This document shows positions 16,117-20,609 of a stretch of DNA of 64,000 bases, piece after piece. Source of the DNA: Candidatus Kapaibacterium sp. (lineage in GTDB: Bacteria; Bacteroidota; Ignavibacteria; Kapaibacteriales; UBA2268); assembly GCA_938031175.1 (NCBI GenBank), contig CALHGZ010000002.1, forward strand, positions 265,242-329,241, written 5' to 3'. How positions within the stretch are numbered: the first letter of the stretch is position 1; each line of letters starts with the position of its first letter. Both the position numbers and the translations under genes were made by a program. The notes under the pieces are model-generated. The model searched no databases and was not told the DNA's origin. It was given only the letters and a program-made list of their open reading frames with translations.

Positions 16117-18042
16117 ATGATAATAACATTCCCAGACGGCAGCAAAAAAGAATATCCCGATGGTACAACAGGTATGGAAATCGCTAAATCCATCTCAGAT
16201 GGATTAGCAAAAAATGCACTTGGCATATTTGTCAACGGTAAAAAATATGATTTATCCAGGAAAATCAATGAAGATGCAGAAATACGAATAGTAACATTTG
16301 ATGATGAAGAAGGTAAGGAAATTTTCTGGCACTCATCAGCTCACCTGATGGCTGAAGCAATACAAGAACTTTATCCTGGAACAAAATTCGGTGTTGGTCC
16401 TGCAATTGAAAATGGTTTTTATTATGATGTTGATATACCTAATGGGGTAACATTATCAAATGAAGATTTACAAAAAATTGAAAATAAAATGTATGAATTA
16501 GCTCAAAGAAATGCCGAATACGAAAGAGTTGAAATTAGCTGGGATGAGGCTGTCAAATTTTGGGAAGAAGCTGGTGATGAATATAAAGTTGAGTTATTGC
16601 AAGATTTGAAAGAGGATGAAATAACTTTCTATAAGCAAGGTAATTTCATTGACTTATGTCGAGGAACTCATATACCGACAACGAAGCATATTAAAGCAAT
16701 AAAATTACTAAATGTTGCTGGTGCATATTGGCGAGGGGATGCAAATAGAAAAATGATGACACGAGTTTATGGTATTTCTTTCCCCAAAAAGAAAATGCTC
16801 GATGAATTTTTATTAATGCTCGAGGAAGCTAAGAAACGTGACCATCGCAAATTAGGAAGAGAATTAGAGTTATTTTTGATAACACCAGCAGTAGGCGGTG
16901 GATTACCATTATGGTTGCCCAAAGGTACAATTTTACGCCGCACCTTGGAAAATTTTCTGAAAAAGGAATTATTTAAAAGAGGATACCAGGAAGTTATTAC
17001 TCCACATATAGGGAATTTAAATTTATATATAACTTCTGGTCATTATCCTTATTACGCTGATTCACAATTTGCCCCTATTAAAGTGGAAGATGAAGAATAC
17101 CTCCTTAAGCCAATGAACTGTCCCCATCATCATCAAATTTATGCATCTAAACCAAGAAGTTACAAAGAATTACCTTTGAGATTAGCTGAATTCGGGACTG
17201 TCTATAGATACGAGCAATCCGGAGAATTAACTGGTTTAACTAGAGTACGAGGTTTTACACAAGATGATGCTCATATATACTGCACTCACGAGCAACTTAA
17301 AGATGAACTAATTAATGCAATAGATTTAACTCAACTTGTTTTTAAAACATTTAATATGGATGTAACAACACGTCTTTCTTTTAGGGATGAAAATTTGGAC
17401 AAATACGCTGGTGACCCTGAAATTTGGGAGAAGGCACAAAATGAGATTAAAGAAGTAGCAGATATTATGGGATTAGACTACAAGATTGCAAAAGGAGAGG
17501 CTTCATTTTATGGTCCTAAGGTTGATTTCATTGTTCGAGATGCAATCGGTAGGAAATGGCAATTAGGTACCGTCCAGGTTGATTATGTTATGCCTGAAAG
17601 ATTCCAACTTGAATATACTGGAAGCGACAATGCCAAGCACCGTCCTATAATTATTCACAGGGCTCCTTTCGGTTCAATGGAACGATTTATTTCAATTTTA
17701 ATAGAGCATTTTGCTGGCAATTTCCCGTTTTGGTTAGCACCTGTACAATTAATTGTCCTTCCAATAAGTGAAAATCAACATAGCTTTGCACTCGATCTAA
17801 AAAATAAATTGGATAAATTAGAATTTCGTACAGAAATAGATTTAAGAAGCGAAAAAATAAATAAAAAAATTGCAGAAGCAGAACACAAAAAGATACCATA
17901 TTTATTAATCATAGGGCAAAGAGAGGTTGAAAATTCCACCATATCGCTTCGTCAGCATCGCATAGGAGATTTAGGAAGCAAAACTTTTGAAGAGTTGATA
18001 AATCTTTTTAATGAAAAAAATAAACCCGGAATTAATAAATAA
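16117..18042 (+). CDS. thrS: Threonyl-tRNA synthetase
   Basis: Charges tRNA-Thr and edits mischarged Ser. 641 residues, full length. Order: an N-terminal TGS domain (1-60), the editing domain with HSSAHLMAEAI (about 70-80) and DLCRGTHIP, the class II core (LLKPMNCPHHHQIY with the zinc Cys; YRYEQSGELTGLTRVRGFTQDDAH; HRAPFGSMERFISILIEHF), and a C-terminal anticodon-binding domain. The 163-bp upstream gap shows no T-box. The gene is 11 bp ahead of the aspartase gene. Confidence 0.96.
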   Translation: MIITFPDGSKKEYPDGTTGMEIAKSISDGLAKNALGIFVNGKKYDLSRKINEDAEIRIVTFDDEEGKEIFWHSSAHLMAEAIQELYPGTKFGVGPAIENGFYYDVDIPNGVTLSNEDLQKIENKMYELAQRNAEYERVEISWDEAVKFWEEAGDEYKVELLQDLKEDEITFYKQGNFIDLCRGTHIPTTKHIKAIKLLNVAGAYWRGDANRKMMTRVYGISFPKKKMLDEFLLMLEEAKKRDHRKLGRELELFLITPAVGGGLPLWLPKGTILRRTLENFLKKELFKRGYQEVITPHIGNLNLYITSGHYPYYADSQFAPIKVEDEEYLLKPMNCPHHHQIYASKPRSYKELPLRLAEFGTVYRYEQSGELTGLTRVRGFTQDDAHIYCTHEQLKDELINAIDLTQLVFKTFNMDVTTRLSFRDENLDKYAGDPEIWEKAQNEIKEVADIMGLDYKIAKGEASFYGPKVDFIVRDAIGRKWQLGTVQVDYVMPERFQLEYTGSDNAKHRPIIIHRAPFGSMERFISILIEHFAGNFPFWLAPVQLIVLPISENQHSFALDLKNKLDKLEFRTEIDLRSEKINKKIAEAEHKKIPYLLIIGQREVENSTISLRQHRIGDLGSKTFEELINLFNEKNKPGINK

Positions 18043-18053
18043 CTGGTTAAGAA

Positions 18054-19940
18054 ATGAAAGTTGAAGAAATTGATAATTTCTTAAAGAAAATTGAGTTGTT
18101 CAAGGATTTAACAGACCAAGAGCGACTGCTGATAATTGATAATCTCATTGAATCTCATTATAGAAGTGATGAATTTTTGTTCGAACAAAATACCGAAAGA
18201 AAACACCTGTTTCTAATCTATAGTGGTAAAGTAAAATTATTTATTAGAACAGCGTTTGGCGAGGAAAAGATTCTGACATATTTTGCTAAATATGATTTTT
18301 TAGGTGAAGGAGCCTTGATGGATTCCTATCCACATTCAACATCAGCTAAAGCTGTTGAGGATTCAATCATACTCAAATTAAACAGGGATGTAATTAATCA
18401 CTTACTGAATAAATACCCTCAGACTGTAGCAAAAATACTTTCTAGTGTAGCAAGGGTGATATCAAGGAGAATGCGTCAAGCGACAAATCAGGTAGTAAAT
18501 GCTGCTGCTCAATATATTTCCGGAAGAACGAGAATCGAGAAAGATTTACTTGGTGAAAGAAAAGTTCCATACGAATTTTATTACGGAATTCATACCTTAA
18601 GGGCAGTAGAAAATTTCGATATATCGGGTATATCAATTAATCATTTTCCCAATTTAATTAAAGCATTAGCACAGGTTAAGCTTGCAGCAGCGAAAGCTAA
18701 TTACGAACTGGGTTATTTGCCCGCTGAGATTGCTCAAGCAATTTTTACAGCATGCGAAGAAATCATTAATGGCAAATGGCATACTCACTTCGTTGTCGAT
18801 ATGGTGCAAGGTGGCGCTGGTACTTCAACAAATATGAATGCCAATGAAGTGATTGCAAATAGAGCATTGGAAATAATGGGTAAAGAAAAAGGAGAATACT
18901 CATTTTGCCATCCTAATAATCACGTAAATTTATCGCAATCGACCAACGATGTTTATCCAACTGCATTGAAAATTGCTTTTATCTACAGCAATGAGTCATT
19001 GATAAATGTTTTGAAAGAAATCATTATTTCATTAAAGCGTAAGGCTAATGAATTTGCTAATGTTATAAAAATGGGGCGTACACAGTTACAAGATGCTGTA
19101 CCGATGACCTTAGGACAGGAGTTCGAGGTATTTGCAGTCACGCTCGAGGAAGAGATTGAACGATTAAATCAGAATGCACAATTATTTCTTGAAGTAAATT
19201 TAGGCGGTACAGCTATTGGCACTGGAATCAATGCAGATCCGAATTATGGCAAAATTGCAATAAAACATTTACAAAAGATTACTGGTCTTCCAGTTGTTTT
19301 AGCTTCGAATTTAGTAGAAGCCACTCAAGATACTGGTGCGTTCGTGATGTTTTCCTCAGCTATTAAAAGATTAGCTATAAAATTATCAAAAATCTGTAAT
19401 GATTTAAGACTTCTCAGTTCAGGACCAAGAGCGGGTTTAAATGAAATAAATTTACCTAAAATGCAAGCAGGTTCTTCAATAATGCCGGGGAAAGTAAATC
19501 CAGTTATTCCCGAAGTTGTGAATCAAATTGCTTTTAAAGTCATAGGTAACGATTTAGCAATAACAATGGCAGCTGAAGCCGGTCAATTACAATTGAACGT
19601 AATGGAACCAATTATTGCCCAAAGTTTATTTGAGTCAATAGAAATGCTCAAAAATGGCATCAAAACTCTTAAATATAGATGTATAGATGGAATTACTGCT
19701 AATGAGAAGAAATGCAGACAATATGTAGAACGCAGTATAGGTATAATTACAGCATTAACACCTGTTTTGGGATATGAAGTATGTTCGCAATTAGCCAAAG
19801 AAGCACTGGAGAAGGATTTAAGTATATACGAATTAATACTTGATAAGAAATTAATCAGTCAGGAAGAATTAGACAAATTATTACTTCCTGAACGAATGCT
19901 TAAACCATATCCATTGCAAATGAAAAATAAATTAGACTAA
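18054..19940 (+). CDS. aspA: Aspartate ammonia-lyase with N-terminal cyclic-nucleotide-binding-type domain
   Basis: Converts L-aspartate to fumarate and ammonia. Residues about 159-620 are a complete aspartase: IEKDLLGERKVPYEFYYGIHTLRAVENF, QGGAGTSTNMNANEV, QSTNDVYPT, MGRTQLQDAVPMTLGQEF and the loop GSSIMPGKVNP. Residues about 10-150 are a CRP/FNR-type double-stranded beta-helix (FLFEQNTERKHLFLIYSGKV, FLGEGALM, then PHSTSAKA), with no helix-turn-helix. The arginine that contacts cyclic nucleotide phosphate (PRSA in most) is histidine here. The fusion suggests allosteric control of aspartase by a small ligand, but the ligand is unknown. It overlaps the convergent regulator gene by 9 bp at the stop codons. 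Confidence 0.92.
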   Translation: MKVEEIDNFLKKIELFKDLTDQERLLIIDNLIESHYRSDEFLFEQNTERKHLFLIYSGKVKLFIRTAFGEEKILTYFAKYDFLGEGALMDSYPHSTSAKAVEDSIILKLNRDVINHLLNKYPQTVAKILSSVARVISRRMRQATNQVVNAAAQYISGRTRIEKDLLGERKVPYEFYYGIHTLRAVENFDISGISINHFPNLIKALAQVKLAAAKANYELGYLPAEIAQAIFTACEEIINGKWHTHFVVDMVQGGAGTSTNMNANEVIANRALEIMGKEKGEYSFCHPNNHVNLSQSTNDVYPTALKIAFIYSNESLINVLKEIIISLKRKANEFANVIKMGRTQLQDAVPMTLGQEFEVFAVTLEEEIERLNQNAQLFLEVNLGGTAIGTGINADPNYGKIAIKHLQKITGLPVVLASNLVEATQDTGAFVMFSSAIKRLAIKLSKICNDLRLLSSGPRAGLNEINLPKMQAGSSIMPGKVNPVIPEVVNQIAFKVIGNDLAITMAAEAGQLQLNVMEPIIAQSLFESIEMLKNGIKTLKYRCIDGITANEKKCRQYVERSIGIITALTPVLGYEVCSQLAKEALEKDLSIYELILDKKLISQEELDKLLLPERMLKPYPLQMKNKLD

Positions 19941-20609
19941 GTCAGCATCAATTAACTTTCTTTCTAATGCCACTTTTATCAAGCCAGCTGTATTCTTTAC
20001 GCCTAATTTGAGCATAATGTTTCTCCTATGAGCATCAACAGTACGCTGACTTATATTTAATTGTTTGGCAATAGCAGCTGTAGTGTATTCACGAGCAATT
20101 AGAGTGAGTATTTGCTTTTCGCGTTTTGAGATTTTAAGTATTCCGGTTGCAGGTTGACCTTTTCTTGTGTCGTTTCTCAATGAACCAGCAGCTATTTCTT
20201 GGGCTAGTTGATTCAGACTTGTCATATCAAGGAATAAATCGCCTCTGGAAACTTTTGCAACAGCCTCGGTTAATTCGTGTAATTCTGAATTCATTGTAAG
20301 AAATCCATTTATCTGAATTTGCAGACAACGTCTAATTGTCATAGCATCTAACTCATTGGAATAGATAATGAATTTGACGTTGGGAAAGGTGTTTTTCAAC
20401 TTAGCAATCTGGTCATAACCAAGGGTCCAAAGGAAATCACTATTGAGAAGAACAATTTGTACTTTATTTTGACTTAATTGATCAGTTAAATCTTCAACAC
20501 TTGTTGAAATTCCAGCCACATCAAAATTACTTTGGTTCTTGAGGTAAAATTCAAACATTTTGGCAAGAAGCTTATGCTCATCAGCAATTAAAATTTTAGG
20601 ATTTTCCAT
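19932..20609 (-). CDS. NarL/FixJ-type response regulator with degenerate receiver
   Basis: 225 residues. The N-terminal receiver-like domain (5-120) keeps the acidic pair D10/E11 and S84, but the phospho-acceptor aspartate is N56 (VLLNSDF) and the conserved lysine is M106 (GFLTMNSE). It therefore probably does not work by phosphorylation. The C-terminal LuxR-type HTH (about 155-218) is intact: SKREKQILTLIAREYTTAAIAKQLNISQRTVDAHRRN. It should be a DNA-binding transcription regulator. No histidine kinase is nearby. It is convergent with and overlaps aspA, and a role in controlling it is only a guess. Confidence 0.85.
   Translation of the reverse strand: MENPKILIADEHKLLAKMFEFYLKNQSNFDVAGISTSVEDLTDQLSQNKVQIVLLNSDFLWTLGYDQIAKLKNTFPNVKFIIYSNELDAMTIRRCLQIQINGFLTMNSELHELTEAVAKVSRGDLFLDMTSLNQLAQEIAAGSLRNDTRKGQPATGILKISKREKQILTLIAREYTTAAIAKQLNISQRTVDAHRRNIMLKLGVKNTAGLIKVALERKLIDADLV

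Follow-up and report, generated by a model that had tools for sequence, protein, structure and literature searches.

Mycobacterial Pat is a cAMP-gated lysine acetyltransferase, in which a cyclic-nucleotide-binding (CNB) domain with a canonical cAMP pocket is fused to an enzyme different from the one described here. In CRP-type proteins, the C-helix transmits the signal and makes the contact between the dimer halves. Known aspartases are tetramers, and the E. coli aspartase reportedly interacts with GlnB, a separate protein (Schubert et al. 2021). Aspartase ties together amino-acid breakdown, ammonia release and fumarate supply. Non-canonical CNB pockets with other ligands have been described, among them heme in CooA and chlorophenolacetic acid in CprK (PMC2246266). 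In the trypanosomatid PKA regulatory subunit, a CNB domain without the phosphate-binding arginine gates an enzyme and has nucleosides as ligands (PMC10959531).

The window, which is the whole stretch of 64,000 nucleotides analysed, contains a gene that joins a CNB domain to an aspartase. The encoded protein belongs to both the aspartase and the CNB family, and in its manner of working it would be of a kind with other CNB-regulated enzymes. The features of the locus are as follows.

18054..19940, + strand: CNB-aspartase fusion gene, 628 aa (open reading frame with Pfam and NCBIfam matches)
18054..18416, + strand: CNB domain comprising the N-terminal helices and the beta-roll, residues 1-121 (Pfam cNMP_binding at 35-121; structure model)
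18198..18200, + strand: Arg49 in the beta2-beta3 loop, at the place of PKA Gly169 (R in 73/74 distinct N-domains)
18303..18335, + strand: phosphate-binding cassette in altered form, GEGALMDSYPH, at residues 84-94 (retains Glu85, but has Gly86 where Leu/Ile/Val is usual and His94 in place of Arg)
18417..18527, + strand: C-helix and linker, residues 122-158, with VISRRMRQ and AAQYISG, forming the CNB-to-lyase joint (model and conservation)
18528..19910, + strand: aspartate ammonia-lyase, residues 159-619 (NCBIfam aspA match and alignment to solved aspartases)
16117..18042, + strand: upstream ORF, threonyl-tRNA synthetase-like by eye, outside the CNB-aspartase system
19932-20609: convergent ORF, which the 3' end of the fusion gene overlaps by 9 bases

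A CNB domain joined to a complete aspartase

The fusion ORF begins with ATG 11 bases after the end of the upstream ORF, and the window translation gives one unbroken frame of 628 residues with zero internal stops. Pfam finds cNMP_binding (PF00027) at residues 35-121 with 63.5 bits against a gathering cut-off of 27.5, and Lyase_1 at 167-498 (329.7 bits) and FumaraseC_C at 564-616 (64.8 bits), both also above their cut-offs. Residues 160-619 match the NCBIfam family TIGR00839 (aspA) at 731.4 bits, above the equivalog cut-off of 681.2, whereas the class II fumarase model fumC_II reaches only 482 bits against a cut-off of 664.75. The protein is thus a complete aspartase joined to a CNB domain. The initial annotation had proposed this architecture from the DNA letters, and the single frame together with the Pfam and aspA matches bears it out. 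It had also described the protein as lacking a helix-turn-helix, in agreement with the Pfam search, which lists no such family in the protein at E <= 0.001; the lyase comes after the C-helix.

The catalytic part is common to the fusion protein and AspA, and the solved structures have no counterpart of the N-domain. The closest solved chain, the aspartase 6wng (646 bits), aligns only from residue 159, and 1jsw, the E. coli aspartase, only from residue 156. The motif GSSIMPGKVNP, which had been reported for this gene, is present in the translation, as is YPHSTSA. GSSxMPxKxNP is the fumarase/aspartase signature, and its residues G473, S474, M477, P478, K480, N482 and P483 are invariant in 28 of 28 aligned fusions. 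Judging from its family, the enzyme would convert L-aspartate to fumarate and ammonia. Residues 6-157 also match profile positions 69-217 of the Family 2B encapsulin shell protein NF041163, with 46.4 bits, far beneath the cut-off of 400. To our knowledge, the Family 2B encapsulin shell protein has no lyase.

Spread of the fusion

A scan of a genome collection gave 185 confirmed stretches, of which the best 80 were retained as loci. The full-length fusion is present in 27 of these best 80 (L002-L028), with 58-73% identity to the window protein, and in the remaining 53 the match begins at residue 136 or later. One of the fusion relatives sits on a complete chromosome, CP058732.1. The initial annotation had left room for an assembly that joined two separate genes. 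Since the same fusion recurs in the same frame in many other genomes, an assembly chimera or a frameshift in the window is ruled out.

N-domain matches, counted at about 190 bits or more, were collected in four phylum samples. The sample of the window's phylum has them in 21 of 395 genomes, all 21 in frame with the lyase. The corresponding figures are 28 of 132 genomes, with 27 in one frame with the lyase, for the phylum labelled GN15; 7 of 40, with 7 in frame, for that labelled Calditrichota; and 5 of 52, with 4 in one frame, for that labelled SAR324 (labels from the records of L004, L015 and L022, respectively). Two loci are exceptions. In L137 the frame reaches the end of the stored DNA. 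In L160 (G629:C50:34465-34944) an N-domain of the fusion type lies in a frame that stops after 248 residues, still within the stored DNA, and that contains no lyase; L160 is possibly a broken gene. In the window's phylum sample, fused domains score at least 191.7 bits and the next CNB proteins at most 119.9 bits. Among plasmids, 504 records have a match, and in none of them does one place cover 80% of the query.

The fused lyases form one clade with an SH-aLRT value of 98 in a quick search without bootstrap. The tree has 89 rows, namely 68 fused lyases, 20 of the 53 unfused loci and one fumarase. The 68 fused rows represent 67 genes, as the window's own gene is included twice (window and L001). 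Of the 53 unfused loci 23 were listed, and L040, L055 and L081 were dropped before any tree was made. In this tree, whose unfused aspartases are limited to 20 loci, the data are most simply explained by a single origin of the fusion with later descent and transfer. In the open-licence PMC literature we found no paper on the CNB-aspartase fusion, and the main text of the 2007 paper by Kannan et al. (PMC2246266) does not contain the word 'lyase'. Databases may already list the fusion among their domain architectures.

Several single loci stood out in the scan. One genome of the GN15-labelled sample (G444) has two copies of the fusion N-domain, at G444:C1:1370040-1370519 (L134) and G444:C1:2618061-2618540. 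In the tree, the branch of the lyase row of L134 is very long (1.08), and L134 matches the fusion profile only up to about position 425, so that its lyase is diverged or damaged. L011 carries the record label Caldisericaceae, yet its genome (G404) falls into one phylum sample with the Calditrichota-labelled L015; the label of L011 is probably wrong. Among the sampled genomes of the window's family, G160 alone lacks the fusion, and its sole aspA-like match at E <= 1e-100 scores 480.5 bits, under the aspA cut-off.

Fold, linker and selection

The AlphaFold model of residues 1-160 has a mean pLDDT of 87.1 and shows a CNB fold. It matches CRP, GlxR and PKA-type CNB folds with Z up to 19.2, and for CRP and GlxR the match has a Z of about 19 over 147-149 residues. 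The fold with its C-helix is therefore shared with CRP and GlxR, but the fusion has a lyase instead of the helix-turn-helix. The model helix spans residues 122-156, with low pLDDT from 148, and in this model the C-helix is predicted to run into the first residues of the aspartase. Conservation extends through this joint: R139, S156 and R160 are present in 74 of 74 distinct N-domains, and R138 in 73. The AlphaFold model of the whole protein has a mean pLDDT of 71.5 and is poor in the linker and active-site loops, and what we say of domain contacts was drawn without it.

For the N-domain, omega ranges from 0.075 to 0.181 in those 8 of 11 pairs of relatives where it is finite, and it exceeds omega of the lyase in all 6 pairs with both values finite; the pairs are hand-chosen near relatives, one side is incomputable in 5 of them through saturated dS, and the values are rough, with dS often > 1. 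The N-domain is therefore under purifying selection, which is looser than that on the lyase. This selection, together with the conserved C-helix and linker, makes it likely that the N-domain binds something or alters aspartase activity.

An internal start at Met140, which would give a free aspartase and has AGGAGA directly before it in the window, was considered and rejected. It is not a conserved feature and the codons of R138-R139 vary freely; AGGAGAATG was counted in 2 of the distinct N-domain sequences. The gap between AGGAGA and ATG at Met140 is too short for a start.

The rebuilt pocket

The cassette of PKA is GELALIYGTPR in Kannan et al. 2007 (PMC2246266). Counted along it, His94 of the fusion protein corresponds to Arg209, and Glu85 to the glutamate of GEL. 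The same source describes Gly169 of the PKA beta2-beta3 loop as co-conserved with Arg209, with its C-alpha packing on the guanidinium, and Gly178 as the most conserved glycine, nine residues from Gly169. Since Gly58 here lies at the same spacing from residue 49, Gly58 corresponds to Gly178 and residue 49 to Gly169. The coupling of Gly169 and Arg209 is not absolute, because two families named in the paper keep Arg209 without Gly169 (PMC2246266).

His94 and Glu85 are present throughout every set of fusions that we aligned, namely the 28 aligned fusions, the 68 rows, which again represent 67 genes because the window's gene is entered twice, and the 74 distinct N-domains. In the last set, Gly58 is also found in 74 of 74, Gly86 replaces the usual Leu, Ile or Val in 73, and Arg49 takes the place of the canonical glycine in 73, with Ser in the remaining one. 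These 74 sequences were derived from 92 rows after removal of L001, L083 and L086, which are copies of the window's gene, and they include L137 and L160, which are not demonstrably fused; they were collected with a profile of the fusions, which strongly diverged members could escape. Thus the cassette glutamate, the second residue of GELAL, is that of a canonical CNB domain, and the canonical cassette arginine (PKA Arg209) is replaced by His94 in every N-domain.

Fourteen unfused CNB domains were recovered as controls, and they are not a random sample: 11 are the best unfused matches in two phylum samples (the window's and the GN15-labelled one), and 3 are distant matches in loci of the genome-collection scan. 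The 11 keep the arginine, and at the place of residue 49 they have Gly in 10 cases and Ala in 1; the 3 distant domains have Tyr, Ile and Ile instead of the arginine. The exchange of PRSA for PHST had been read from this one gene, and it holds across the fusions, with His94 in 74 of 74 and Arg in 11 of the 14 unfused domains. Because His94 is in every fusion N-domain and Arg in 11 of the 14 unfused ones, histidine 94 most likely became fixed no later than in the last common ancestor of the fusions and was kept from then on. The change from Gly to Arg49 is a second, linked change that goes beyond the initial annotation. As judged from the alignments, both partners of a known co-varying pair are changed, and the new Arg49/His94 pair is conserved. 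Arg49 may bring a positive charge into the pocket from its opposite side, and His94 may act as a hydrogen-bonding or charged partner.

CRP and GlxR have the phosphate-binding Arg and the loop Gly where the fusion has His and Arg. With these residues, and with a lyase after the C-helix, the fusion protein lies outside the canonical cAMP-binding CNB domains and outside the CRP/FNR regulators. The trypanosomatid PKA regulatory subunit resembles the fusion in that the phosphate-binding Arg of its CNB domain is replaced, and its key glutamates E311 and E435 (TbPKAR) take the place of PKA A202 and A326 (PMC10959531). These glutamates have no counterpart in the fusions, where all 68 rows have A, S, V, T or G at position 87. 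Nucleoside binding of the trypanosomatid kind is thus not supported.

Candidate ligands and proposed control of the aspartase

The genome of the window (2.69 Mb, 97% complete) has no match to the class I and class III cyclase families, the two classes that were searched, and its sole PF00027 domain is the fused one. It contains three Lyase_1 genes. As the other two are fumarase C and purB, the fusion is the only aspartase found in this genome. Of the 8 sampled fusion-bearing genomes in the window's family, 7 have no class III cyclase match, and in 5 of the 8 the fusion holds the sole PF00027 match. Class III cyclase is present in 30 of the 49 genome handles searched, which include G160 without the fusion and count some genomes twice (G109 and G419 are one such case). 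Among the neighbours of 28 loci, several of which have short flanks, each gene family occurs at 4 loci at most, and no dedicated partner was seen, so the neighbourhood gives no clue to the ligand. Together, the missing cyclases, the lone PF00027 domain and the absence of a recurring neighbour speak against cAMP, in the window's family at least, and for a common metabolite. The only GGDEF (c-di-GMP) match of the window's genome is L149 (G000:C9:67711-68154), a weak match of 45.4 bits in a 760-aa frame.

With moderate confidence, we infer from these data a CNB-gated aspartase with a changed ligand. The data show the architecture, its spread, the conservation of the pocket, a single clade in the sampled tree and purifying selection; the aspartase activity (from the family), ligand binding, the nature of the ligand, the allostery and the direction of its effect are inferred. 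The protein would be a single-chain, allosterically controlled aspartase, whose catalytic part would turn L-aspartate into fumarate and ammonia. The N-terminal beta-roll of the CNB type would hold a small ligand in what was once the cAMP pocket. The long C-helix, which continues directly into the start of the lyase, would relay the change to the enzyme oligomer. In the rebuilt pocket, Glu85 is retained, His94 replaces the phosphate arginine and Arg49 the loop glycine that packs on it. From this pocket, the ligand is probably not 3',5'-cAMP and would be another nucleotide-like or anionic metabolite, produced without a gene dedicated to it in the neighbourhood.

Ordinary cyclic-nucleotide control, in which cAMP, cGMP or another cyclic mononucleotide is still the ligand and Arg49 reaches in from the loop to stand in for the lost arginine, seems unlikely. 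It would fit the invariant Glu85 and the position of Arg49, which is the place whose glycine packs on the missing arginine (PMC2246266). In cyclase-bearing species such a ligand is possible, because 30 of the 49 handles have a class III cyclase. However, the window's genome has no class I or III cyclase match, G109 is the single genome with a class III match among the 7 others sampled from its family that bear the fusion, and the invariance of His94 suggests a specific new role. The proposal made with the initial annotation, that the ligand is not ordinary cAMP, therefore finds support in the pocket changes and in a window genome without a class I or III cyclase match or another PF00027 domain, but it is weakened by the class III cyclases in those 30 handles.

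It is likewise improbable that the domain is ligand-free and serves as a module for assembly, stability or localisation. The faster evolution of the N-domain relative to the lyase, the lack of a class I or III cyclase match in the window's genome and the lack of a conserved neighbour gene would all agree with such a scaffold, but Glu85, His94, Gly86 and Arg49 in the pocket are among the most conserved residues of the domain and would be needless for it. A CooA-type heme or gas (redox) sensor with His94 as axial ligand is very doubtful: the heme histidine of CooA is structurally analogous to PKA Arg209 according to Kannan et al. 2007 (PMC2246266) and is matched by His94, but Glu85 is strictly retained and, His94 aside, the invariant and near-invariant N-domain columns of the 28-row alignment hold no His, Cys or Met, so that a second side-chain heme ligand of these kinds is not conserved.

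Within the favoured CNB-gated aspartase, we tentatively suggest that the paired swap (Gly to Arg49 and Arg to His94, with Glu85 kept) might define a new class of CNB ligand. The domain might then sense a metabolite new to the fold, for example a dicarboxylate, an amino acid or a non-cyclic nucleotide, and directly set aspartate breakdown without a cyclase or a transcription factor. A sensor domain borne by the enzyme would give direct control of the branch point between amino-acid breakdown, ammonia release and fumarate supply. The Arg-to-His and Gly-to-Arg pair, fixed in several phyla, is a natural experiment on the change of ligand in the CNB fold, which is very common, and the canonical relatives make this change open to tests by mutagenesis.

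The nearest unfused relatives of the N-domain are L106-L114 from the window's phylum sample, whose open frames measure 173-197 aa and whose cassettes have the canonical Arg. The CNB domains L143 and L144, which also have it, lie in longer frames (543 and 561 aa), and the remainder of these frames is PAS-histidine kinase-like by eye.
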